From the NCBI RefSeq assembly GCF_040546585.1, contig NZ_JBEPOC010000001.1:2666001-2730000 (forward strand): DNA of 64,000 nucleotides, in the 5' to 3' direction. Positions 3-62,657 of this stretch are shown piece by piece. The notes beneath the pieces were generated by a model. It made no database searches. It had not been told where the DNA came from and worked only from the letters and a program-made list of their open reading frames with translations. Within the stretch, counting starts at the first letter, position 1, and each line of letters starts with the position of its first letter. Origin of the DNA: Marmoricola sp. OAE513. Lineage in GTDB: Bacteria; Actinomycetota; Actinomycetes; Propionibacteriales; Nocardioidaceae. The position numbers and the translations under genes are program-made.

Positions 3-1272
3 CCGGTGGTCGTGGTCGAGCCGCCTCCGGTGGTCGAGCCGCCTCCGGTGGTCGAGCCGTCCCCGGTGGTCGAGCCTGCCGAGACCCCCGCACCCGTCGA
101 GCCTGAGTCGATTTCCGAGTCGTCCCTGGTGGTCGAGCTGCCTTCGGTGGTCGAGCCTGTCGAGACCCCCGCACCCGTCGAGCCTGAGTCGACTTCCGTG
201 CCGTCCCCAGAGCCCGAGGCACCTTCCGAGCCCGAGCCGCCCTCGGAGCCCGAGCCGTCCCCGGTGGTCGAGCCTGTCGAGACCCCCGCAGCCCGCCCGC
301 TCTTCGCCGACGAGCTCGCGGGCCCTGAGCCTGCGGCGGATGATGAGGACGGCGCCGAGGACCCTCAACCTCAGCCGCGCCTCGGCTTCCGTGCCCGCCG
401 CCGCGCTCGCAAGGAAGAAGCAGCCACCGCCGAAACCGCTCTCCCCGCGGTGGGCGAGCCCGCCGAACCCGCCGAGACCTCCGCGCCCGAACTCCCCCCG
501 GTGGTCGAGCCTGTCGAGACCCCCGCCTCCGAGCCCGACTTCGACGCCGACCTGCAGGCGCGCATCGACGCCGAGATCGAGCGCAAGCTCACCCTGCCTT
601 CCCGCCGCGCCCGCAAGGAGGCGAAGCAGGCCAAGGCCGCGGAGAAGGCGGCGGCGAAGGCCGCCGCTGCGGAGCCCGAGAGGTCCGAGCCGTCCGCCGT
701 ACAGATCTCTGCACTTCTGGACGCCCCGTCGGACGACTCCGACCCCGCTCCGGCCGCGCCAGAGATCCCACCGACCGACGCGCCCGAGAACACCGACGAA
801 TCCATCGCCCTGCCCCGACGCAAGGCCGAGCGGCAGCTCCCCGACCTCGGCTGGATGATCCCCGGCGGCCTGCTCCTGGTGCTCCCGGTCCTGGTGATCA
901 TCGGTGTCTTCGTCCTGGTCAAGGGACCGGGTGGTTCCAGCTACGGCGACAGCACCATCACGCCGCCGGCGAAGATCGACGAGGGCGACCGCTTCGATGT
1001 CGGTTCGTTCACCGCGGACGGCGGCTGGACGATCAGCCGGACCAGCCCGCTCTGGACCGTCAGCGGACTGAGGGTCACGAACGTGTCCTCGGCCCCCGAC
1101 ACCGCGTCGTTCACCCTGAAGCTCTACAAGCTCACCAAGGTGGTCGTCGTCCTCGACTGCACCACGGGCGAGCTCGCGCCCGAGCAGGACCAGGTGGTCA
1201 GCTGCAACGACCCGGCGAACATCCCGGTGACCGCGGACTGGAGATCGGATCACTGTTCAGCAGGCGTTCTAG
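3..1272 (+). CDS. Membrane-anchored protein with repeat-built acidic proline-rich N-terminus (5' partial, frameshifted)
   Basis: The gene enters from the left edge, so its true start is not seen. The N-terminal part is low-complexity Pro/Glu/Val sequence in which VVEPVETP or close variants recur at least four times. Arg/Ala/Lys-rich stretches follow. One transmembrane segment (GGLLLVLPVLVIIGVFVLV, about 865-920) leads to an outer domain of roughly 110 residues, predicted beta-rich. The open frame runs on to 1997 through the oppositely oriented acetyltransferase gene, which is not credible. Removing one A near 1242 restores a frame ending WDRITVQQAF and a stop at 1270-1272, six bases before the convergent gene ends. 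I read this as a one-base insertion. Function is unknown. The cytoplasmic tail appears to have grown from the dispersed repeat described in the findings. Confidence 0.6.
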
Positions 1273-6296: not shown

Positions 6297-6996
6297 TCCG
6301 GAGCAGGTAGCCAAGCTCTTCGGTGTCGCCCACGAGCCTCTCCTCGTGGGCGACGCCGCACCGGCGCGGTCGTCGAACGAGCCCCGGCGGACTCCTCACG
6401 AGCGTCGCTCGTCGAGCAACTCCCGGTCGTCGAGCTCGTCGAGACGCGGTGACGAAACCGCAGAGGCCATCGCCGACGACACTGACCGCGACCTCGGCCC
6501 CGAGGCCGATCCCGAGTCCGTCGGCCGCAAGATCCTGCTCGACCAGCTGACCGGACGCGCCCGAAGCCGTGCTGAGCTGGCGAAGAAGCTGGGGCAGAAG
6601 AACGTCCCAGCGGAGATCGCCGAGCGGCTCCTGAACAGGTTCGAGGAGGTCGGCCTGATCGACGACGCTGCGTTCGCTCAAGAGTGGGTGACCCAGCGGC
6701 AGGAGGGCAAAGGACTCGCTCGCCGCGCCCTCGCCCAGGAGCTCCGCCGCAAGGGTATCGACGACGAGGTCGCGCGGGCAGCGCTGGACACCGTCGAGAC
6801 CGAGGACGAGGTCGAAGCCGCGCGCCTGCTGGTGCAGCGCAAGCTGCGGTCGATGCGCGGACTCGACCAGCAGGTCGCGATCAGGCGTCTGGTCGGCATG
6901 CTCGCCCGCAAGGGTTACTCGAGCTCGATCTCCTTCCGGGTGGTCCGCGAGGAGCTCGACGCCGACCTCAACGACCCGGAGCACTCCGGCCTCTGA
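6280..6996 (+). CDS. recX: Regulatory protein RecX with repeat-derived N-terminal extension
   Basis: 238 residues. RecX binds the RecA filament and limits its activity. The conserved three-helix-repeat region starts around residue 80 ([20 protein letters not shown]) and runs to the C-terminus, including [16 protein letters not shown]. The first 80 residues are a low-complexity Ser/Arg/Asp extension. The DNA coding for residues about 48-58 (6423-6452) is a copy of the dispersed palindromic repeat, and the Ser/Arg stretch before it is probably related. The ATG overlaps the corrected recA 3' end, so the two genes should be translationally coupled and co-induced. Confidence 0.93.
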
Positions 6997-9124: not shown

Positions 9125-9613
9125 ATGGCCAACGTTGCTGATCTCTACAAAACCACCACCACGCTTCCAATCATCGGACCGCTGGTCGGTGAGCGCCTGT
9201 TCTCCCTCGCGTTCGCGCAGAAGGCGCCGTACTTCGCGAGCATCCACCCGCGGTTCACCAAGATCGAGCCGAATTACGCCGAGCTGGTGATCCCGAAGCG
9301 TCGTTCCGTGCAGAACCACATCGGCACGGTGCACGCGATCGCGCTGTGCAACGGCCTCGAGGCGGCGATGGGCGCGCTGGCCGAGTCGACCATCCCGAAG
9401 AACAAGCGGTGGATCCCCAAGGGGATGGACATCTCCTACACCGCCAAGGCGACCACCGACATCACCTGTGTCGCGGAGACCGATGCCGAGCAGTGGACCA
9501 GCGACAACCCCGACCTGCACGTGCGGGTCAAGGGCTACCGCACGGACGGCGTCGTGGTGATCGAGGGCGTCATCAAGCTCTGGGTGACCGAGAAGCCTTC
9601 GAAGGACGCCTGA
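9125..9613 (+). CDS. DUF4442 hot-dog fold protein
   Basis: 162 residues with the hot-dog pattern of the DUF4442/PaaI group: a central helix region IGTVHAIALCNGLEAAMGAL followed by the strands KGMDISYTAKATTDITCVAE and VRVKGYRTDGVVVIEG. Members are thioesterase-like and act on acyl-CoA or related thioesters, but many lack a defined substrate. The usual catalytic acid of active PaaI enzymes is not obvious, so activity is uncertain. It is probably transcribed as a leaderless mRNA. The dispersed palindromic element begins 25 bases after the stop. Confidence 0.82.
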   Translation: MANVADLYKTTTTLPIIGPLVGERLFSLAFAQKAPYFASIHPRFTKIEPNYAELVIPKRRSVQNHIGTVHAIALCNGLEAAMGALAESTIPKNKRWIPKGMDISYTAKATTDITCVAETDAEQWTSDNPDLHVRVKGYRTDGVVVIEGVIKLWVTEKPSKDA

Positions 9614-9638
9614 CCGCCAACGGTCGTCGGGCCGCCCC

Positions 9639-9740
9639 CGGTCGTCGAGCTTGTCGAGACGTCCTGACGTCGGCAGTGACCTCACTGCATCTCGGCAATC
9701 TCGATGACCGGGGCAGCTCGATGACCGGGGAAGCTCGAGG
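9639..9740. repeat. Bipartite dispersed palindromic element, copy 1
   Basis: The left arm GGTCGTCGAGCTTGTCGAGA (9640-9659) and the right arm CATCTCGGCAATCTCGATGA (9688-9707) are inverted repeats of each other with a short loop. Two extra right-arm fragments follow. It lies between two genes in tandem. Confidence 0.88.
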
Positions 9741-9823: not shown

Positions 9824-12823
9824 ATGAGCTCCGAAGCCGGTACGTCCTCCCCGCTGGCCCGGCTCGCGAGGTTCACCATCGCCAAGGCGCCGTGGATGAT
9901 CGGCGGCTGGCTGCTGTTCGTGATCGCCGTCAACGTGCTGGTGCCCCAGCTCGAGGTCGTCGTCGCGAAGGACAGCACCCCGTTCGTGCCCGACACCGCG
10001 CCGTCGCTGCGCGCGGTCAAGGACATGGACGCGACCTTCGGCAACGGCAAGAGCCGTTCATTCATCGTCGTGGTCGCCGAGCGCAAGGGCGGGCTGACCG
10101 CCGCCGACACGACCTTCGTCACGGGCCTGGCTGAGCGGCTGGAGAAGGACACCGAGAACGTCACCTACGTCCAGGACGTCAGCGAGCCGCAGCTGCGCGA
10201 GGCGTTGACCAGCAAGGACGGCGAGGCGACGTACTTCCAGGTCGGCCTGCCCGGCTACACCGGCGCCCCGACGTCGGTAGGACAGGTCGAGTCGATCCGC
10301 GAGGATGCCAAGTCCGGCAAGCCCGACGGTCTGGACATCAAGGTCACCGGTGCCTCCGCGACCGTCACCGACATGGTCGTCGAGGTCGAGAACAGCATCC
10401 TCAAGATCACCGCTGTCACGATGGTCGGGATCGCGCTGATCCTGTTCCTCATCTACCGCTCGGTCGCGACCACGGCCTTCGTGCTCGGCATCATCGGCGT
10501 CGCTCTCGGCGCCGCCCGCGGCATCACCGCCCTGCTCGGCAACGCCGACGTCTTCGACGTCTCGACCTTCACCGGCTCGTTCCTGACCGGTGTGGTCCTC
10601 GGCGCGACCACCGACTACGCGATTTTCCTGATCAGCAGGTACCACGAGCTGCGGCGCGAGGGCCTCGAGCCGGAGGAAGCCGCCCGTACGGCGTCCTCCC
10701 GCGTCTCGGCCGTCATCATCGGCTCGGCGCTCACCGTCGTCCTCGCCAACGCCTGCCTGGGGCTGGCCCACGTGGGCCTGTTCCGTACGACGGGACCGGC
10801 GATCGCGGTCAGCGTGCTGCTCGCGCTAGGCATCTCGCTCTCGCTCACCCCGCCGCTGCTGGCCATCCTCGGCAAGCGCGGCCTTCTGGAACCACGGAAG
10901 CGTCCGAGCAGCTCGCGTGGCTGGGAACGACTCGGCAAGCAGGTCGTCGCCCACCCAGCACGCGTCCTGGCCGCGGGCGTCGTCCCGCTCGTCGTCCTGG
11001 CGGCGTTCTTCCCGGCGTTCACCCCGAGCTACGACGAACGCAGTCCGCAGCCGAAGGACACCGAGAGCAACCTCGGCTACCGGGTCATGGACGCGCACTT
11101 CACCAAGAACGAGGCGCTGCCGGACTTCGTCTTGATCACCGCCGACCACGACCTGCGCAACCCGACCGATCTGGCCTCTCTCGAGCAGGCCTCGGCGGCA
11201 GCCGCCCGCGTGGACGGTGTCACCTCGGTGCGCGCGGTCACCCGCCCGACCGGTACGACGATCCAGCAGGCCTCGCTGCGCAACCAGACCGGCGTCATCG
11301 GCGACAAGCTCGAGGACGCGGGCAAGCAGCTCAAGGCGGGCGAGAAGAAGACCGACCGGCTCGTCGACGGAGCCGGTGAGCTCGACGAGGGCGCCACCCA
11401 GGTGGCCCGCGGGGCCGGCGACGCCGCGGACGGAGCCGGGCGGCTGCTCACGGGTGTCGAGAAGCTGCACGCGGGCCTGGAGAAGCTCGCCGCCGGAAGC
11501 GGATCCGCGGCCGGCGGCAGCACGCAGCTGCGGCAGGGAGCCGATCAGCTCGCCGACGGACTGGAGGCTGCTGTCAGTCAGACCCAGCTCGCGGTGGACG
11601 GCCTCGGCCTGGCTCACCAGGCACTGGGCAAGAGCCTCACCTGCGGGCTGGACCCCTACTGCAACGGCGCCCGCGACGGCATCAAGAAGATCTGGGTCGC
11701 CGAGCGGGACCAGCTCGTCCCGGGCCTGCGTGCTGCAGCGAAGGGCGCGCGTCAGCTCGCCGACGGCGCGGTCGACCTGGAGACCGGGCTGCGGAAGATC
11801 CGCAACGGCCTCGACACCGCCGAGAACGGGTCCGCCCAGCTCGTCGACGCCCAGCGCACCCTGTCCGACGGTCTCGGGAAGCTGGCCGACGGAACCGGTC
11901 AGGTCGCCGACGGCACCGGACTGGTCGCCGGCGGCACCAAGAAGCTGGCCGGATCGGTCACCGAGCTCCAGGCCGGGCTGAACGCCGCGGCGACGTACCT
12001 CCAGGGCGTGGCGAGGTCGACCCCGCCGTCCAGCGGCGGCTTCTACCTGCCGCCCAGCGCCCTGAAGGACTCCCGGTTCGCGCTCGCCAGCGGTGCCTAC
12101 CTGTCGCCGGACGGCAAGGTCGCCCGGCTGATCGTGCTCGGTGACTCCGACCCGTTCGGTCGCCCTGCCGCCGACCGTTCCGGTGACGTCACGGACGCGG
12201 TCACCGAGAGCCTCAGCGGAACGAGCCTGGAGGGCAGCAAGGTCGCGGCCACGGGCATGGCCTCCACGAACGCCGACATCGCCGAGCTCTCGCAGTCGGA
12301 CTTCCGGCTGGTCGCGATCGCTGCCCTGATCGCGGTCTACCTGGTCCTGCTGCTCCTGATCCGCAGCATCGTCGCGGCCACGTTCCTGCTTGCCTCCGTC
12401 GTGCTCTCGTACGCCGCCACGATGGGCCTGGCGATCCTGGTCTGGCAGATCATCGGCGGCACGCCGATCGAGTGGACGGTGGCCTGCATCGCCTTCGTCC
12501 TGCTGGTCGCGGTCGGGGCGGACTACAACCTGCTGCTGATCAAACGCGTGCACGAGGAGGCGCCGGACGGCTCCCGTGAGGGGGTGGCCCGTGCGGTCGC
12601 GCTGACCGGTGGCGTGATCACCGCGGCCGGCGTGATCTTCGCGGCATCGCTGTTCGCGATGATGAGCGGTTCGGTGACGACGCTGGTCCAGCTCGGCTTC
12701 ACCGCGGGCATCGGCCTGCTGATCGACACGTTCGTGGTGCGCACCCTGGTGGTGCCGGCGTTCGCGGCGATCGTCGGGCCGAAGCTGTGGTGGCCCTCGA
12801 AGGTTCCCGCGTCCACCGACTAG
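9824..12823 (+). CDS. MmpL/RND-family transporter with long DGA-repeat periplasmic coiled region
   Basis: 999 residues. It has two RND halves, each with one membrane helix followed by an outer domain and a block of five helices. The first block contains GATTDYAIFLISRYHELR and the second VGADYNLLLIKRVHEE, the Asp-Tyr pairs used for proton relay in MmpL proteins. The second outer domain (about 500-740) is unusually long and full of L-A-D-G-x-G-x-V/L repeats, the pattern of YhgE/Pip-type phage-infection proteins, suggesting a long helical stalk. It likely exports a lipid or cell-envelope product by proton motive force. A shared terminator separates it from the convergent amidase gene. Confidence 0.9.
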   Translation: MSSEAGTSSPLARLARFTIAKAPWMIGGWLLFVIAVNVLVPQLEVVVAKDSTPFVPDTAPSLRAVKDMDATFGNGKSRSFIVVVAERKGGLTAADTTFVTGLAERLEKDTENVTYVQDVSEPQLREALTSKDGEATYFQVGLPGYTGAPTSVGQVESIREDAKSGKPDGLDIKVTGASATVTDMVVEVENSILKITAVTMVGIALILFLIYRSVATTAFVLGIIGVALGAARGITALLGNADVFDVSTFTGSFLTGVVLGATTDYAIFLISRYHELRREGLEPEEAARTASSRVSAVIIGSALTVVLANACLGLAHVGLFRTTGPAIAVSVLLALGISLSLTPPLLAILGKRGLLEPRKRPSSSRGWERLGKQVVAHPARVLAAGVVPLVVLAAFFPAFTPSYDERSPQPKDTESNLGYRVMDAHFTKNEALPDFVLITADHDLRNPTDLASLEQASAAAARVDGVTSVRAVTRPTGTTIQQASLRNQTGVIGDKLEDAGKQLKAGEKKTDRLVDGAGELDEGATQVARGAGDAADGAGRLLTGVEKLHAGLEKLAAGSGSAAGGSTQLRQGADQLADGLEAAVSQTQLAVDGLGLAHQALGKSLTCGLDPYCNGARDGIKKIWVAERDQLVPGLRAAAKGARQLADGAVDLETGLRKIRNGLDTAENGSAQLVDAQRTLSDGLGKLADGTGQVADGTGLVAGGTKKLAGSVTELQAGLNAAATYLQGVARSTPPSSGGFYLPPSALKDSRFALASGAYLSPDGKVARLIVLGDSDPFGRPAADRSGDVTDAVTESLSGTSLEGSKVAATGMASTNADIAELSQSDFRLVAIAALIAVYLVLLLLIRSIVAATFLLASVVLSYAATMGLAILVWQIIGGTPIEWTVACIAFVLLVAVGADYNLLLIKRVHEEAPDGSREGVARAVALTGGVITAAGVIFAASLFAMMSGSVTTLVQLGFTAGIGLLIDTFVVRTLVVPAFAAIVGPKLWWPSKVPASTD

Positions 12824-27626: not shown

Positions 27627-28466
27627 GTGGACATCTCCTTCGTCAAGGGTCACGGCACCGAGAACGACTTCGTGCTGATCCCCGATGCCAACGGCAAGCT
27701 CGACCTCACCGCCGAGCAGGTCGTGCGGCTGTGCGACCGCCGCGCGGGCATCGGCGGCGACGGGGTGATCCGCGTCGTACGGACCGATGCGACCGACGAC
27801 CCGGCCGCGGTCGAGTCGCGCGGGACCGCCCGCTGGTTCATGGACTACCGCAACAGCGACGGCTCGGTCTCCGAGATGTGTGGCAACGGCATCCGGGTGC
27901 TCGGCCTCTACCTGGTCACGCACGCCGACGCCGACCCTCGCGAGCCGCTGAAGATCGCGACCCGCGCCGGGATCAAGGTGCTGACCTTCGGTCGTGCCGA
28001 TGACGGGGAGCTGCGAATCACCGTGGACATGGGCAACCCGCAGGTCTTCGAGGAGACGAAGGTCAGCGTCGGCGACCGTTCCTGGCCCGCGACCAAGATC
28101 AGCATGGGCAACCCGCACGCAGTCGCGTTCGTCGAGTCGCTCGAGGACGCGGGCAACCTGTACGCCGAGCCCGAGTTCGACCGCTCGGTCTTCCCCGACG
28201 GTGTGAACGTCGAGTTCGTCGTCCGGGCGGGGGACAAGCACCTGTCGATGCGGGTCCACGAGCGCGGCTCGGGGGAGACCCGGTCGTGCGGCACGGGCGC
28301 CTGCGCGGTCATGGTCGCCGCAGCGATCGCCGACGAGGCCGAGCGAGGGACGTCGTACCGGGTGGACCTGCCGGGCGGCACCCTCGACATCGTCTGGACC
28401 GACGACGACCGGATCCTGATGACCGGTCCGGCCGTGCTCGTCGCCGAGGGCTTCACCAGCCTGTAG
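27627..28466 (+). CDS. dapF: Diaminopimelate epimerase DapF
   Basis: 279 residues. It converts LL- to meso-diaminopimelate for lysine and peptidoglycan synthesis. The two catalytic cysteines are present: C85 in EMCGNGIRV and C221 in SCGTGACA. The GTENDFV-like start KGHGTENDFVLIP and the middle MGNPHAV are also typical. Length is normal. It is transcribed from its own apparently leaderless promoter. A bipartite palindromic element separates its 3' end from the convergent thioesterase gene. Confidence 0.97.
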   Translation: MDISFVKGHGTENDFVLIPDANGKLDLTAEQVVRLCDRRAGIGGDGVIRVVRTDATDDPAAVESRGTARWFMDYRNSDGSVSEMCGNGIRVLGLYLVTHADADPREPLKIATRAGIKVLTFGRADDGELRITVDMGNPQVFEETKVSVGDRSWPATKISMGNPHAVAFVESLEDAGNLYAEPEFDRSVFPDGVNVEFVVRAGDKHLSMRVHERGSGETRSCGTGACAVMVAAAIADEAERGTSYRVDLPGGTLDIVWTDDDRILMTGPAVLVAEGFTSL

Positions 28467-28467
28467 T

Positions 28468-28571
28468 CCCGGTCGTCGAGCTTGTCGAGACGTGGTGAGG
28501 TCGGCGCGGAGGTCACCGCATCTCGGCAAGCTCGATGACCGGGCTGGCGATGACCGGGCTGGCTATGACCG
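28468..28571. repeat. Bipartite dispersed palindromic element, copy 2
   Basis: The left arm GGTCGTCGAGCTTGTCGAGA (28471-28490) pairs with the right arm TCTCGGCAAGCTCGATGACC (28521-28540). Inner GGTGA and TCACC extend the stem. Two further short copies of ATGACCGG follow. It lies between convergent dapF and the thioesterase gene. Confidence 0.9.
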
Positions 28572-28574
28572 GAG

Positions 28575-29018
28575 CTACAGCACCAAGCAGGTTGTCGTCC
28601 CGTGCGCGATCAGCTTCCCGTCGGCGCTGAACAGCTTGCCCTCGGCGGTCGCCTGCTTGCGGCCGCGGTACAGCACCGTCCCAGTAGCGCGCACCGGTCC
28701 CATGCCCGGCTGCATCGCGCGGAGGTAGTGCAGGTTGAGCTGCTGTGTCGTGTACGCCTCGCCCGGCGCCAGCGTCGTGTGCACCGCGCAGCCCATGCAC
28801 GAGTCGAGGATGGTGGCTGCGATACCGCCGTGGACCGTGCCGATCGGGTTCATCATCCGCTCGTCGGGGCTCAGCTCGAAGGTCGCGATGCCCTCGCCGA
28901 CCTCCACGACGCTCATCCCGAGCAGGACGGCGATGCCCGGCGGGGGCAGCTCGCCGTTCACGATCAGCTGCATGGTCTCCAGGCCGGTCAGGCTGGCGAG
29001 GTCCACGGTGGCGGTCAT
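28575..29018 (-). CDS. PaaI-like hot-dog thioesterase
   Basis: 147 residues from ATG 29018. The hot-dog signature is MNPIGTVHGGIAATILDSCM, with the HGG turn and the downstream Asp used by acyl-CoA thioesterases, followed by strands around YTTQQLNLHYLRAM and GRKQATAEGKLFS. It probably hydrolyses short or aromatic acyl-CoA. The ATG overlaps the stop of the upstream MFS gene (ATGA), so the two are translationally coupled and under the HxlR-type control described at 30485. Confidence 0.9.
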   Translation of the reverse strand: MTATVDLASLTGLETMQLIVNGELPPPGIAVLLGMSVVEVGEGIATFELSPDERMMNPIGTVHGGIAATILDSCMGCAVHTTLAPGEAYTTQQLNLHYLRAMQPGMGPVRATGTVLYRGRKQATAEGKLFSADGKLIAHGTTTCLVL

Positions 29019-30460
29019 GCGGGGTCTCCGATCGAGGCGGGGGTCAGGTCGGGCGTGATCTCGGGGGTGAAGGCGCGCTCCTTGCGCGGCAGGGCGAGCG
29101 CGGCCAGTGTGGTGAGCGCGCCGGAGATCACCAACATCCACCAGACGCGGTGGAAGTGGTCCAGCACGTTCAGCGGGGTGACGGTGCCGAGCAACGCGAC
29201 GGTGAGTGCGACCCCGAAGGTGGCACCGAGCTGTCGGACGGCCTGGTTCACCGCCGACCCGGCCCCGAACTGGTCGGCGGGCAGACCTTGGACGGCCGCG
29301 CTGGTCAGGTGCGGGATCACCATCGCAACGCCGAGCCCACCGAGCAGGGCGCCGGGCAGCAGGTGGCCGGCCCAGTTCGGCTCGGTCGTCATCACCGCGA
29401 GCATCCAGACGGCGCTCGACGCGTAGACGAGACCGCCGGGCACGAGCAGCGAGCGCTGACCGATCCGACCTGCCAGCCGTCCGAAGATCGGTGCGAGCAC
29501 CATCACGACGGCCGGCCCGGGCATCATCACGACGCCGGTCTTCACGATGCTGTAGCCCCAGACCTGGGTCAGGAAGAGCACCTGGGCGAAGAACATCGCG
29601 GTGAAGCCGATGGTGAACGCCGCCGTGGCGATGTTGGCCCATCGGAAGCTCGGCGACCCGAACAGCGTGAGGTCAAGAGCAGGGTGCGGGTGGTCGAGGG
29701 TCCGTACGACGAATGCCGTCAGCACCAGCAGGCCACCGACGAGCACGCCGATCGTGCGTGCCGATCCCCAGTGCCACTGGTCGCTCTGCACGATGCCGAG
29801 TGCCAGCAGGCTCAGGGCGCCGGCGAGCAGCAGGATGCCGATCGGGTCGGGGAAGCGCGCGGTGTGCGACTCCCGCGACTCCGGCATCGCGCGTCGGGCG
29901 AGCACGAAGGCGATGGCACCGACGGGCAGGTTGATCAGGAAGACCGAGCGCCAGCCCCAGCCGTCGACCAGCAGGCCACCCAGCGTCGGTCCGACGGCGG
30001 CGGCGAGCGCCGCGATCGCACCCCAGATCGCGACGGCGGCGGGCACCTTCTCCTTCGGGAACACCGTGAGCACGATCGCCAACGAGGCGGGAATCAAGGC
30101 CGCGGCGCCGAGCGCCTGGATCACCCGGAAGCCGACGAGCAGGAACGGCGAGGTCGCGGCCGCGCACAGGGCCGAGGCCAGCGTGAACGCGACCAGGCCG
30201 ACGAGGAACGTTCGTCGGCGCCCGAACCGGTCCGCGAGCCGCCCCGCGGGGACCAGGGCCGCGGCCAGCGCGATCGTGTACGCCGACAGGGTCCAGGACA
30301 TGGTCGCGAACGAGACCTCCGGGAAGCTCGCGGCGATGTCGTCGAAGGCGATGAAGAGGACCTGGGTGTCCAGGAAGACCATGAAGGCGGCCAGGCTGGC
30401 GATGCCGAGCACCGACCAGGGCTTCACGTCCTCCGGTCGTCGAGCTTGGGGAGACGTCAT
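29015..30460 (-). CDS. DHA2-type MFS transporter with repeat-derived N-terminus
   Basis: 481 residues with about 14 membrane helices, EmrB/QacA-like. Motif A is GRLADRFGRRRTFL and motif C-like glycine/proline residues occur in AAVGPTLGGLLVDGWGWRS. LDTQVLFIAFDDIA follows in helix 1. A proton-driven drug or metabolite exporter is likely. The first residues MTSPQARRPED are encoded by a copy of the dispersed repeat read on its reverse strand. A -10 box lies seven bases before the ATG. It is divergent from the HxlR-type regulator, which probably controls it. Confidence 0.9.
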   Translation of the reverse strand: MTSPQARRPEDVKPWSVLGIASLAAFMVFLDTQVLFIAFDDIAASFPEVSFATMSWTLSAYTIALAAALVPAGRLADRFGRRRTFLVGLVAFTLASALCAAATSPFLLVGFRVIQALGAAALIPASLAIVLTVFPKEKVPAAVAIWGAIAALAAAVGPTLGGLLVDGWGWRSVFLINLPVGAIAFVLARRAMPESRESHTARFPDPIGILLLAGALSLLALGIVQSDQWHWGSARTIGVLVGGLLVLTAFVVRTLDHPHPALDLTLFGSPSFRWANIATAAFTIGFTAMFFAQVLFLTQVWGYSIVKTGVVMMPGPAVVMVLAPIFGRLAGRIGQRSLLVPGGLVYASSAVWMLAVMTTEPNWAGHLLPGALLGGLGVAMVIPHLTSAAVQGLPADQFGAGSAVNQAVRQLGATFGVALTVALLGTVTPLNVLDHFHRVWWMLVISGALTTLAALALPRKERAFTPEITPDLTPASIGDPA

Positions 30461-37218: not shown

Positions 37219-37983
37219 ATGATCGCCGTGATCGTGATCGTCGTACTGCTCGTCCTGATCGTCGGCTTCGTGATCGTCGGCTTCAACAAGCTGCGCACCA
37301 CCGACATCGGCGCCCAGGAGGCGCTGGGTGGCATCGACGTCCAGCTGACCCGTCGTGCCGACCTGATCCCCAACCTGGTCGAGACCGTGAAGGGCTACGC
37401 GGCCCACGAGTCCGGTGTGTTCGAGGCCGTGACCCAGGCGCGCGCCGGTCTGGCCGCCGCCGCCAAGGGTGACGACGTGCAGGCGAAGGCCGCTGCCGAC
37501 CAGGCGCTGAGCCAGGCGCTCGTCCGCGTCAACGCGGTCGCCGAGGCGTACCCGGACCTGAAGGCCAACCAGAACTTCCAGGACCTGCAGAACCAGCTGA
37601 AGGACACCGAGGACAAGATCTCCTTCGCGCGGACCTACTACAACGACGCCGTCGCGACGCTGAACAAGCTCGTCGTCACGATCCCGTGGATGTTCCTCTC
37701 CGGCCTGGCCGGCGTGAAGACCCGCGAGTTCTACGAGGCGCCTGCCGGCGCGGACGTCGCCCCGACGGTGAACTTCGGTACGACGCCGCCCGCCCCGCCG
37801 ACGCCGCCGGCTGCACCTGCCGCCCCGCCGGTCCCGCCCGCTCCTCCGGCAGCTCCCGCGGCCCCGGCTGCTCCTCCGGCCGCCTCGCCTGCTGCTCCCG
37901 CTCCGCCGGCCCCGCCGGTCACCCCGCCGCCGGCCGCCGAGCCGCCGGCTGCCCCGGAGCCTCCGACGGCCCCGCCCGCCTGA
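37219..37983 (+). CDS. lemA: LemA family protein with Pro/Ala-rich tail
   Basis: 254 residues. An N-terminal membrane helix (VIVIVVLLVLIVGFVIVG) is followed by the LemA four-helix region: QEALGGIDVQLTRRADLIPN, LVETVKGYAAHESGVF, then ISFARTYYNDAVATLN. After residue 185 the protein is almost only Pro and Ala, a tail not needed for the fold. AGAGG lies upstream of the ATG. It is transcribed after the DUF2207 gene and probably forms a membrane complex with it. A bipartite palindromic element follows its stop. Confidence 0.92.
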   Translation: MIAVIVIVVLLVLIVGFVIVGFNKLRTTDIGAQEALGGIDVQLTRRADLIPNLVETVKGYAAHESGVFEAVTQARAGLAAAAKGDDVQAKAAADQALSQALVRVNAVAEAYPDLKANQNFQDLQNQLKDTEDKISFARTYYNDAVATLNKLVVTIPWMFLSGLAGVKTREFYEAPAGADVAPTVNFGTTPPAPPTPPAAPAAPPVPPAPPAAPAAPAAPPAASPAAPAPPAPPVTPPPAAEPPAAPEPPTAPPA

Positions 37984-37986
37984 CAC

Positions 37987-38067
37987 ACCGGTCGTCGAGC
38001 TTGCCGAGACGTGACGTTGGCTGGGACTTCAGTCGGCTCACCGCATCTCGGCAAGCTCGATGACCGT
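37987..38067. repeat. Bipartite dispersed palindromic element, copy 3
   Basis: The left arm GGTCGTCGAGCTTGCCGAGA (37990-38009) and the right arm TCTCGGCAAGCTCGATGACC (38046-38065) are inverted repeats. It fills the gap between convergent lemA and potC and overlaps no coding sequence. Confidence 0.9.
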
Positions 38068-38068
38068 T

Positions 38069-38878
38069 TTACGTCCGCGCGCCGATCGCCTCGTCACCCT
38101 GGCTCAACCGCTGGGCGATCCAGATCGGGATGATCGAGACGAAGATCAGGGCCGCCGCGATCACGTTGACCACCGGGGCGTCGTTCGGGCGGAACATGTG
38201 GTCGAGGATCCAGATCGGCAGCGTCTTGGTCCCGCCGCCCGCGGTGAACGTGGTCACGATGATCTCGTCGAAGCTGAGCGCGAAGGCCAGCAGGCCGCCG
38301 GCCAGGAGCGCCGAGCGCAGCACCGGGAAGGTCACCAGCCGGAACGTCGTGAACGTCCCGGCCCCCAGGTCCATCGATGCCTCCTCGAGGTTGCCGCCGA
38401 CGCGGCGCAGCCGGGCGAGCACGTTGTTGAACACGGTGACGATGCAGAACGTCGTGTGCGCGACCACGATCGTCCAGAACCCCAGGTTGATCCCGAGCAC
38501 CGAGCTGAAGACGTTCTGGAACGCCAGGCCCGTGACGATGCCGGGCAGCGCGATCGGCAGGATGATCAGCAGCGAGACGGCGTCGCGCCCGAAGAACCGG
38601 TAGCGCGCGAGCGCCAGTGCCGCCATCGTGCCGAGCACGAGCGAGATCACGGTCGCCACCGCCGCGACCTGGAGGGAGAGCCCGAGCGACTCGCGGACCT
38701 CGTCGTTGTGCCAGGCGGCGTCCCACCACTCGGTGGTCCAGCCGCTGGGCGGGAACGTGAACGAGCGCGAGGTGTTGAACGAGTTCAGCACCACGACTGC
38801 GAGCGGGACGTAGACGACCAGCAGGACGATGCCGGTCAGGACGCCGAGGACGGTCTTCGCCGTACGGGAGAGGATCAC
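38069..38878 (-). CDS. potC: Polyamine-type ABC transporter permease PotC
   Basis: 269 residues with six membrane helices. The cytoplasmic coupling loop reads EEASMDLGAGTFTTFRLVTF, the EAA motif of binding-protein-dependent permeases. The N-terminal VVYVPLAVVVLNSFNTS is typical of the PotC/YdcV branch. Its start overlaps the end of potB by four bases. It is the last gene of the potA-potD-potB-potC operon read on the minus strand. Specificity for spermidine/putrescine is by family only. Confidence 0.9.
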   Translation of the reverse strand: MILSRTAKTVLGVLTGIVLLVVYVPLAVVVLNSFNTSRSFTFPPSGWTTEWWDAAWHNDEVRESLGLSLQVAAVATVISLVLGTMAALALARYRFFGRDAVSLLIILPIALPGIVTGLAFQNVFSSVLGINLGFWTIVVAHTTFCIVTVFNNVLARLRRVGGNLEEASMDLGAGTFTTFRLVTFPVLRSALLAGGLLAFALSFDEIIVTTFTAGGGTKTLPIWILDHMFRPNDAPVVNVIAAALIFVSIIPIWIAQRLSQGDEAIGART

Positions 38879-59746: not shown

Positions 59747-62657
59747 ATGACCGAGACCGTGAGCGGATCAGCAAAGGGGCAGACCCGTCGCAAGGGCCTG
59801 AAGATCGAGCGCATCTTCAGCACCGAGGGTGTCCACCCGTACGACGAGCTCACCTGGGAGCGTCGCGACGTCGTCCAGACGAACTGGAAGACCGGCGAGA
59901 CCGTCTTCGAGCAGCGCGGCGTCGAGTACCCCGACTTCTGGAGCGTCAACGCCTCCACCATCGTCACCACCAAGTACTTCCGCGGCGCGGTCGGCACCGA
60001 CGTCCGCGAGTGGAGCCTGCGTCAGCTCATCGACCGCATCGTTCTCACCTACACCAAGGCCGGCCAGGAGCACGGCTACTTCGCGACCGTGAAGGACGCG
60101 GAGACCTTCGAGCACGAGCTCACCTGGCTGCTGGTGCACCAGTACTTCTCGTTCAACTCCCCGGTCTGGTTCAACGTCGGCACCGCCTCTCCCCAGCAGG
60201 TGTCCGCGTGCTTCATCCTGTCGGTCGACGACTCGATGGACTCGATCCTCAACTGGTACAAGGAAGAGGGCTTCATCTTCAAGGGCGGCTCCGGCGCCGG
60301 CCTGAACCTCTCCCGCATCCGCTCGAGCAAGGAGCTGCTGTCCTCCGGCGGGACGGCGTCCGGTCCGGTGTCGTTCATGCGCGGTGCTGACGCCTCGGCG
60401 GGCACCATCAAGTCCGGTGGCGCCACGCGTCGCGCGGCCAAGATGGTCGTCCTCGACGTCGACCACCCCGACATCGAGCAGTTCGTGATGACCAAGGCGC
60501 GCGAGGAGGACAAGATCCGCGCCCTGCGTGACGCCGGTTTCGACATGGACCTCGGCGGCGAGGACATCACCTCGGTGCAGTACCAGAACGCCAACAACTC
60601 GGTGCGCGTCACCGACGAGTTCATGCGTGCGGTCGAGGACGGCACCGACTTCGGTCTGCGCTCGCGCAGCACCGGCGAGGTCATCGAGACCGTCGACGCC
60701 CGCGACCTGTTCCGCAAGATCAGCGAGGCCGCCTGGGCCTGCGCGGACCCGGGCCTGCAGTACGACGACACGATCAACGACTGGCACACCAACCCGGAGA
60801 CGGGCCGGATCACCGCGTCCAACCCGTGCTCGGAGTACATGTCGCTGGACAACTCCTCGTGCAACCTGGCGTCGCTGAACCTGCTGAAGTTCCTCAAGGA
60901 GGACGACACCTTCGACGCCCCGCTGTTCGCGAAGGCCGTCGACCTGATCATCACCGCGATGGACATCTCGATCTGCTTCGCCGACTTCCCGACCGAGGCG
61001 ATCGGCAAGACCACCGTCGACTACCGCCAGCTCGGCATCGGCTACGCCAACCTCGGCGCGCTGCTGATGGCGATGGGTCTGGGCTACGACTCCGACGGTG
61101 GCCGCGCGATGGCCGCGACCATCACCTCGCTGATGACCGGACAGTCCTACAAGCGCTCGGCCGAGCTCGCCGGCGTCGTCGGCCCGTACGCCGGCTACGC
61201 CCGCAACGCCGAGGCCCACAAGCGGGTCATGCGCAAGCACCAGGCCGCCAACGACGTCGTGCGCACCCTCGCGGTCGCCGACAGCCAGGTGCACAAGCTG
61301 GCCACGAAGGCCTGGGCCGACGTGCTCAAGCTCGGCGAGAAGAACGGCTTCCGCAACGCGCAGGCCTCCGTGCTCGCGCCGACCGGCACCATCGGCTTCA
61401 TGATGGACTGCGACACCACCGGCATCGAGCCGGACTTCTCGCTGGTCAAGTTCAAGAAGCTCGTCGGTGGCGGCTCGATGCAGATCGTCAACCAGACCAT
61501 CCCGCGGGCCCTGCGCAAGCTCGGCTACCAGGAGGAGCAGGTCGAGGCGATCGTCGAGTTCATCGCCGAGAACGGTCACGTCATCGACGCGCCGGGCCTG
61601 AAGACCGAGCACTACGAGGTCTTCGACACCGCGATGGGCGCCCGCGCGCTCAAGCCGATGGGCCACGTCCGGATGATGGCGGCCACCCAGCCGTTCCTCT
61701 CCGGCGCGATCAGCAAGACCGTGAACCTGCCGGAGACGGCCACGGTCGAGGAGATCGAGGACGTCTACATGCAGTCCTGGAAGCTCGGGCTCAAGGCGAC
61801 CGCCGTCTACCGCGACAACTGCAAGGTCGGCCAGCCGCTCTCCGACGCCAAGGCCAAGTCGTCCGACGCCGAGGTCAAGGACGAGGACGCCTCTGCTGTC
61901 CAGGTCGTCGAGATCCACAAGCCGTTCCGCAAGCGTCTCCCGAAGAGCCGCGTCTCGCGGACCACCTCCTTCACGGTGGGCGGCGCCGAGGGCTACATGA
62001 CCTCCGGGGCGCACGACGACGGCGAGCTCGGCGAGGTCTTCCTCAAGCTCGGCAAGCAGGGCTCGACCCTGGCCGGCGTGATGGACGCCTTCTCGATCGC
62101 GGTCTCGATCGGCATGCAGTACGGCGTCCCGCTGGAGACCTATGTCTCCAAGTTCACCAACCTGCGCTTCGAGCCGTCCGGCATGACCGACGACCCGGAC
62201 GTCCGGATGGCCCAGTCGCTCATGGACTACGTCTTCCGCCGCCTGGGCGCTGGACTACATGTCCTTCGACGAGCGCTCGGCCCTCGGCATCTACTCCGCC
62301 GAGGAGCGCCAGCGTCACCTCGAGACCGGCTCCTACGAGCCGGTCGAGGAGACCGGTGGCGCGGACGAACTGATCTCATCGGTCGTCGAGCCTGTCGAGA
62401 CGTCGGAAGTTCCCACGCTTGCTGCCCGTGCGAAGTCCGAGCCGGTGGACGCCCAGGCCGTCGAGACCGTCGACCTGCCGGAGATCAAGCTGGAGAAGCC
62501 GGCCCCGGCCGAGGCCCACACGACCGCCGAGCTGCTGGAGAAGATCTCCGGTACGGCGATCGACTCGCCCCTGTGCATGACGTGCGGGACGAAGATGCGG
62601 CCGGCTGGTAGCTGCTACGTGTGCGAGGGTTGCGGCTCGACCAGCGGTTGCAGTTGA
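59747..62657 (+). CDS. nrdJ: Adenosylcobalamin-dependent ribonucleotide reductase NrdJ (one-base frameshift, repeat insertion)
   Basis: Class II reductase that makes dNTPs without oxygen dependence. Core motifs: NSPVWFNVGT, FKGGSGAGLNLSRIRSSKEL, NPCSEYMSLDNSSCNLASLN and APTGTIGFMMDCDTTGIEPD. The frame breaks at the GGG run 62245-62247. Deleting one G yields RRLALDYMSFDERSALG and reads on to a stop at 62657, about 969 residues. The C-terminus CMTCGTKMRPAGSCYVCEGC binds zinc and recycles the active-site disulfide. The linker holds a dispersed-repeat copy read as SSVVEPVETSEV. AAGGGG precedes the ATG. Confidence 0.96.
62379..62402. repeat. Dispersed palindromic repeat inside nrdJ
   Basis: CGGTCGTCGAGCCTGTCGAG then ACG, in frame, coding for VVEPVET in the linker before the zinc tail. 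Confidence 0.85.

Follow-up and report, generated by a model that had tools for sequence, protein, structure and literature searches.

A REP-like hairpin family in Marmoricola sp. OAE513 and its association with solo GIY-YIG nuclease genes

The hairpin elements and their basic unit

The window, by which we mean the whole 64-kb stretch of Marmoricola sp. OAE513 DNA that was analysed, carries three palindromic elements between genes. All three palindromes named in the original prediction were present, and two of them (elements 2 and 3) lie between convergent genes, as had been claimed; element 1 lies between co-directional genes. Gene coordinates in the window were obtained with a home-made gene caller, and gene names were taken from Pfam. 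The predicted inverted-arm architecture was also confirmed, each element folding as one long hairpin with 0/200 shuffles as good. The DNA fold energies of elements 1, 2 and 3 were -26.8, -31.1 and -30.2 kcal/mol (z = -5.56, -7.00 and -6.43), and the start-to-start distances of their arms were 50, 50 and 56 nt. The features of the window are as follows.

65..519, + strand: four GGTGGTCGAGCCTGYCGAGA units, at 65, 146, 263 and 500 (arm search)
6425..6444, + strand: single unit overlapping a called ORF (arm search, gene calls)
9125-9613, + strand, and 9824-12823, + strand: DUF4442 and MMPL genes, neighbours of element 1
9622..9632, + strand: 5' half-unit with one mismatch, outside the left unit of element 1 (spacing 18)
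9637..9712, + strand: element 1, inward unit pair, one long hairpin (sequence, fold z -5.56)
9640..9661, + strand: left unit of element 1, GGTCGTCGAGCTTGTCGAGACG (sequence, arm search)
9688..9709, - strand: right unit of element 1, reading GGTCATCGAGATTGCCGAGATG on the - strand (sequence, arm search)
9716..9726, - strand: 5' half-unit outside the right unit of element 1 (spacing 17)
27627-28466, + strand, and 28575-29018, - strand: dapF and thioesterase genes, neighbours of element 2
28468..28543, + strand: element 2, inward unit pair between the convergent dapF and thioesterase genes (sequence, fold, gene calls)
28471..28492, + strand: left unit of element 2 (sequence, arm search)
28519..28540, - strand: right unit of element 2 (sequence, arm search)
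28541..28574, no strand: degenerate half-units, formed by short tandem repeats of outer unit sequence plus right flank (by eye)
30435..30454, + strand: single degraded unit in a divergent gap (arm search, gene calls)
37219-37983, + strand, and 38069-38878, - strand: LemA and ABC permease genes, neighbours of element 3
37989..38066, + strand: element 3, inward unit pair between the convergent LemA and ABC permease genes (sequence, fold, gene calls)
37990..38011, + strand: left unit of element 3 (sequence, arm search)
38044..38065, - strand: right unit of element 3 (sequence, arm search)
62381..62400, + strand: single unit overlapping a called ORF (arm search, gene calls)

One reading frame of the GGTGGTCGAGCCTGYCGAGA units at 65-519 gives VVEPVET, so that such units may be part of a repetitive gene; the final gene caller placed no gene there.

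When the window was searched for the arm GGTCGTCGAGCTTGTCGAGA with up to three mismatches, 14 matches were found, against a mean of 0.01 in shuffles, and 0/100 window shuffles attained this number. The same search of the 3.89-Mb genome gave 265 matches (144 + 121), compared with 10 (4 + 6) for the reversed pattern. A strand bias of the arms was considered and rejected, the + strand being over-represented among the matches listed. Rfam gave no match within the 64-kb window, a plasmid search with element 2 returned one weak match, and the sole named match to the exact two-unit pattern was a Marmoricola sp. MAG. One stem type, searched phylum-wide, occurred in 17/296 genomes and was numerous only in the genome of the window (159 copies), G088 (36) and G367 (7); several genomes of the same genus had 0 to 2 unit copies.

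Unit statistics were determined on a 915,637-bp genome sample, made up of 55 segments picked around listed arm matches and therefore not random. From 211 arms with up to two mismatches in this sample, we obtained the unit consensus CCC-GGT-[CGTC]-GAGCYTGYCGA-[GACG], in which a 4-nt stem and its partner enclose a near-constant 11-nt loop; TGGTGA often follows on the 3' side of the second stem half. The stem varied in a paired manner among the 211 arms: pair 5-21 was G-C in 152 and A-T in 44, pair 4-22 was C-G in 176 and G-C in 20, and pair 7-19 was C-G in 202 and T-A in 5. Across all 77 distinct 22-mers, 29 cells were changed on both sides versus 7.8 in shuffles (0/500 with as many); sliding the partner gave no more than 7. 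Fifty-five hand-picked unit sequences gave the same outcome, and two further measures on the 77 22-mers, pairs with a double change and further pair types, showed no excess over shuffles. The strands adjoining the stem read YGAG and CGAR (unit core YGAG...CGAR), which would allow tandem G-A pairs. A lone unit folded no better than shuffles (z -0.74) in a folding program that does not model G-A pairs in the assumed way and did not show them.

Arrangement and placement of the units

The units of the sample formed 126 clusters, comprising 75 single units, 37 clusters of two and 14 larger ones. The two-unit clusters were mostly inward (25/37), with 6 outward and 6 in the same direction, and the commonest inward spacing was 50 nt (9/25). 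The bipartite element of ~70 bp is real and consists of two inward units; the unit also occurs alone, in 75/126 clusters, and in tandem arrays, and is accompanied by half-units. The basic unit is one arm rather than the two-unit palindrome put forward in the original prediction. Tandem arrays with a period of ~31-66 bp, flanks included, were observed at G000:C1:877094-877353, 1526423-1526699, 3081376-3083015 and 3296799-3297016. Such arrays with flanks are a sign of local amplification.

Many units, on both strands, are accompanied on their outside by 5' half-units (GGTCRTCGAGC), in tandem and separated by a short spacer. The half-units were polar: the 5' half stood alone 87 times and the 3' half 15 times, with 18 and 5 for the reversed-pattern controls. 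Exact 5'-anchored matches ended at base 11 in 41 cases, at base 12 in 45 and at base 13 in 2 (shuffled 3, 1 and 1), and those ending at bases 7-10 numbered 645, 586, 147 and 81 versus 389, 231, 35 and 17 in shuffled sequence. The 3'-anchored matches ending at 10-12 showed no excess (19 vs 19 shuffled). The half-units may be the trace left by nicking within the loop.

With respect to genes, 72 of the 126 clusters were intergenic, 51 overlapped called ORFs and 3 were at segment edges. The intergenic clusters fell into 30 convergent, 36 tandem and 6 divergent gaps, while the 495 background gaps of at least 20 nt comprised 81 convergent, 275 tandem and 139 divergent ones. Convergent gaps were therefore enriched (p = 4e-6) and divergent gaps depleted (p = 1e-4, Fisher), in a sample chosen around listed matches and with home-made gene calls. 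Of the tandem-gap clusters, 26/36 lay at most 27 nt from the upstream stop codon, and 15/19 single units in tandem gaps had the sense orientation. Copies far above chance and a non-random placement were thus the outcome of the genome-wide arm search and placement check proposed in the original prediction. Such a placement can be accounted for either by tolerance or by a role at RNA 3' ends. A scan for a T-run intrinsic terminator, limited to 28300-28700 around element 2 and to terminators with a T-run, found none.

Solo GIY-YIG genes between inverted hairpins

By inspecting the ORFs between nearby unit clusters, we found a solo GIY-YIG gene in the genome of the window (C1:877313-877678, 121 aa), flanked by six units on one side and, in inverted orientation, by three on the other. 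Its product matched PF01541 with E = 1.4e-19, and Y5, Y15, G17, R25, H29 and E62 were present in 61/61 aligned GIY-YIG proteins. The PDB relatives, 1zg2 (BH0048) and 1ywl (EF2693), are UPF0213 proteins and are both named hypothetical proteins; the product resembles them in having a single catalytic domain and, by sequence, the same fold family. The partner protein is accordingly classified, from its sequence, as a putative GIY-YIG nuclease of the UPF0213 type. The genome has a second GIY-YIG gene (L145, within G000:C1:1584000-1588000), which is bracketed by single inverted units of a different loop type, TGGTCGAGCGTAGTCGAGACCA; the 915-kb sample contains 2 exact copies of TGGTCGAGCGTAGTCGAGACCA and 5 with up to two mismatches.

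Across 81 family genomes, 50 GIY-YIG matches were found, distributed over 34 genomes. One gene at a contig end (G041) was left out of the bracketing count, and the frame of G040 contains a stop. The 52 scored rows were reduced to 49 distinct genes, as L163 (two rows) and L164 list the genes of L133 and L131 a second time. Of the distinct genes, 46/49 were flanked on either side, at a distance of no more than 460 bp, by inward stem-YGAG...CGAR-stem' hairpins. Inward motifs numbered 92 + 98 and outward motifs 32 + 18, with a background of 56 per 95,445 bp on both strands; 13/49 genes also had outward motifs on both sides. The three exceptions were L150, bracketed on its left side only, and L161 and L162, which are ~40% identical to the query. 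Of four additional solo GIY-YIG genes, three were bracketed and one (G379) failed the strict motif test. As a control, 18/762 genes of the genome of the window were bracketed, and among genes of similar size 2/112, one of which is the GIY-YIG gene itself. These counts indicated a strong association of the hairpins with the GIY-YIG gene within one family.

The GIY-YIG gene and hairpins occupied different sites in different genomes, and only 8/1225 pairs among the 50 GIY-YIG loci shared a flanking ORF. The site of element 2 was compared across relatives. Both dapF and the thioesterase gene were retained at 8/20 loci, that of the window included, and the relatives are ~80% identical at this site, too distant for junctions to be read. 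The gap is 114 bp with element 2 in the window, 8 bp in G060 and 20 bp in G375. In G379 it is 516 bp and holds a GIY-YIG gene between degraded inverted hairpins, which are visible by eye and fail the strict motif. The 166-bp gap of G383 contains pieces that align locally to both ends of the G379 gap and to the start of its GIY-YIG frame, with the middle missing. Judged from this alignment, G383 appears to be a clear case of an internally deleted remnant of a GIY-YIG element, at a hairpin type other than that of the window. The gap of G071 measures 393 bp and holds two motifs per orientation, and those of G386 (130 bp) and G053 (538 bp) are without a motif. The few shared flanking ORFs, together with the variable states at the dapF site, fit a moving element.

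We then compared the hairpin type at the gene with the type dispersed in the genome. In G375 and G383, the units on either side of the GIY-YIG gene are of the types CGTC/GACG and CATC/GATG, which are also those scattered through the genome of the window, and both genomes carry dispersed copies aligning to the window's element. The stem CCCT/AGGG, predicted from the G078 gene, was present 22 times in G078, including twice at the gene, and 0-4 times in each of nine other genomes of that genus from the same draw; G074, of another genus, had 48 such units. The gene was present in 13/16 genomes with at least 10 units versus 21/65 others among the 81 genomes, and in 13/14 unit-rich genomes versus 19/48 others among the 62 better ones, both counts being uncorrected for kinship. 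In 7 of the 13 unit-rich genomes with the gene, a gene has bracketing hairpins of the dispersed loop type (G000, G011, G040, G049, G051, G053 and G072), and in 6/13 this is not so (G004, G013, G023, G043, G046 and G071); in G071, the type beside the GIY-YIG gene is also present at the dapF site. A solo GIY-YIG gene was not found in the unit-rich genomes G074 (48 units), G050 (38) and G088 (36), where matches occurred only in long frames, nor in the incomplete genomes G017 and G065. By analogy, G074, G050 and G088 are possibly orphans like genomes that have REPs without RAYT.

A known proteobacterial repeat, CCGTTCG-[stem]-GAGCYTGTCGA-[stem'], was found in plasmids. It resembles the window family in its 11-nt loop, covarying stems and inward pairs and differs from it in the 5' tag, the stems and the rarity of half-units. 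In 8 plasmid records chosen from matches, the loop pattern occurred 132 times versus 12 for the reversed pattern; the stems differed yet stayed paired (48/51 distinct units with at least 3 pairs), and 5' half-units were seen in 2/48, one with the same break as the half-units of the window.

A GIY-YIG match was present in 39 plasmid records, of which 20 were examined for inverted repeats. Inverted repeats bracketed the gene in 10/11 alphaproteobacterial loci, 0/200 shuffles reaching each score; three Sphingobium loci share a single site, as do two Shinella loci, leaving ~seven independent loci. The association is thus clear in Alphaproteobacteria, and inverted-repeat bracketing was found in 0/9 plasmid loci outside them. 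The bracketing repeats were CGTC-tagged hairpins such as CGTCACCCCGGGCTTGACCCGGGGT in Novosphingobium, Shinella and Sphingobium and, in Sphingomonas parapaucimobilis, CTGAGCGAAGTCGAAG, which is close to the motif of the window. Copies of one CGTC-type core numbered 12 vs 1 in the control for the Shinella record, 5 vs 0 for the Sphingobium record and 5 vs 2 for S. meliloti pSymB, with 0-2 in the other four plasmid records. In Methylobacterium (L165 and L166), the genes are bracketed by inverted repeats with a different palindrome, CCTCAGGATGAGG. Among the unbracketed genes, one of Planktothrix agardhii p1 (L176, 18847-19131) is flanked by an MmeI-type restriction-modification gene and by DISARM drmA, and those of two Variovorax plasmids (L173 and L230) lie near a gene for a DNA/RNA non-specific endonuclease.

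Relation to known repeats and a candidate mechanism

REPs count among the commonest repeats of bacteria, RAYT being, to our knowledge, the enzyme tied to them so far. The units of the window have REP features in the broad sense, with 265 arms versus 10 in the control, 72/126 clusters intergenic and 25 inward pairs. Like GTAG REPs and REPINs as presented in excerpts of PMC2817692, they are short, high-copy, mostly extragenic palindromes that form dimers and arrays; like the REPtrons of the same excerpts, they can enclose an enzyme gene between two inverted units, with unit and enzyme often mutually specific. The bracketing that characterizes the RAYT system was found here (46/49) with a GIY-YIG gene instead of RAYT. 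Unlike that system, however, the enzyme would be a GIY-YIG hydrolase and not a Y1/HUH transposase, and unlike GTAG REPs, the units have no GTAG tag (the 5' flank is CCC-GGT) and combine a near-constant 11-nt loop core with a variable stem and 5' half-units. The hairpins thus behave like a REP with a resident enzyme but fail two defining tests of the RAYT system, tag and enzyme, and we have classed them as a family of REP-like hairpins partnered by a GIY-YIG protein.

CGTC REPs form a second point of comparison. In excerpts of a 2013 survey (PMC3733652), these repeats are described as not associated with transposase genes and seemingly without a dedicated transposase. They are likewise described there as mostly head-to-head dimers in convergent and tandem gaps, without RAYT, as are the window units, and REPs are reported to be enriched between convergent and unidirectional genes. 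Their definition in these excerpts, however, is an unpaired CGTC tag, an 8-9 bp stem starting A-T and a 4-5 nt loop, and the window units differ in stem length and loop. Membership of the CGTC REPs was rejected for the window units, in which CGTC is a paired, covarying stem half and is often CATC or GGTC. Like MITEs, the window units lack coding capacity, and the G383 element would derive by internal deletion from an enzyme-bearing element; unlike MITEs, their basic unit is a single hairpin and not a terminal-repeat pair. A literature search, its scope lying outside preprints and most subscription papers, found no paper pairing GIY-YIG proteins with repetitive extragenic palindromes, none naming two of YhbQ, UPF0213 and GIY-YIG together and, for wider combinations, nothing relevant among the matches listed, and a text search with the loop sequence gave no title on repeats among the matches listed. 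Excerpts of PMC10928387, PMC7272566 and PMC12306157 held nothing bearing on such a pairing; in those of the last, a REP survey tool, the words nuclease and transposase were absent.

Taken together, we consider it probable that the elements are non-autonomous REP-like hairpins, that their cognate enzyme is the solo GIY-YIG nuclease (UPF0213 type) and that the gene between inward units is the autonomous form. Mobile non-autonomous units, one of the three roles offered in the original prediction, are therefore supported, with GIY-YIG as the likely partner enzyme; the terminator and RNA-stability roles are compatible with the placement, but no T-run terminator was found around element 2 and 51/126 clusters overlap called ORFs. 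The nuclease would recognise the unit hairpin in single-stranded or cruciform DNA and nick the loop near GAGC^YTG, a position chosen because the 5' half-units stop there. Host repair would then copy from the free 3' end, giving rise to new copies, arrays and half-units. Most insertions that persist would be those just downstream of a stop codon or in a convergent gap, where they may double as RNA 3' hairpins. The association was observed, and cutting and movement are inferred from it; the nuclease is the likely driver of hairpin spread. Counting against this reading are the unit-rich genomes in which no solo gene was found, the loop-type mismatches, the unbracketed plasmid loci outside Alphaproteobacteria, the genes that also have outward motifs on both sides, the weak fold of a lone unit, the rarity of half-units in the proteobacterial repeats and the excess of shorter 5'-anchored matches.

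Three other explanations were weighed against this reading. A host-type GIY-YIG nuclease might trim, resolve or silence hairpins spread by another agent, or be autoregulated by them. GIY-YIG enzymes hydrolyse DNA and are not known to rejoin it, which counts for this explanation, as do the unit-rich genomes without the gene and the repeat-free solo GIY-YIG genes in ordinary operons, e.g. yazA of B. subtilis. However, the genomic location of the gene differs between most relatives, gene and hairpins are present or absent together at one site, and internally deleted remnants have been left, as with a mobile element; we regard this explanation as unlikely. Alternatively, selected terminators or mRNA 3' hairpins could have been multiplied by ordinary duplication, the link to GIY-YIG being incidental. 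The enrichment of convergent and depletion of divergent gaps, the proximity of tandem cases to upstream stops, the strong element folds and the sense orientation of most tandem-gap single units all agree with this, but it leaves the bracketing of the GIY-YIG genes unexplained, and the 51/126 clusters overlapping called ORFs, the missing T-run at element 2 and the 0 to 2 copies in several same-genus genomes make it quite improbable. Least probable, and only marginally credible, is a RAYT or other transposase moving the units in trans with the GIY-YIG gene as a passenger: the high copy number, palindromes, dimers and arrays are RAYT-REP-like, and the family-wide transposase survey covered PF01797 only, but the Y1 transposase (RAYT) domain PF01797 had 0 matches in the genome of the window and was present in 2/81 family genomes, both unit-poor, and there is no GTAG tag; RAYT as the mobiliser was rejected on these counts.

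The GIY-YIG reading may also extend beyond the family. Solo GIY-YIG nucleases could be the enzymes so far missing for REP-like hairpins across phyla, the CGTC REPs included. These would form a hairpin-homing class of mobile DNA, in which a hydrolytic nuclease nicks the loop of a G-A-mismatched hairpin and host repair makes the copy, in parallel with RAYT and REPs and with unrelated chemistry. We give this extension an even chance, because of the loop-type mismatches (6/13). The main facts against a universal claim are the orphan genomes G074, G050 and G088, these mismatches and the 0/9 loci outside Alphaproteobacteria, which could reflect gene loss, action in trans, several hairpin families per genome or a different driver.

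The small nuclease between matched hairpins in Actinomycetota and Alphaproteobacteria provides a concrete candidate enzyme for CGTC REPs. If the proposal is true, palindromes in genomes without RAYT would be explained, short hairpins would spread in a homing-like manner, and part of the UPF0213 family would have a role.
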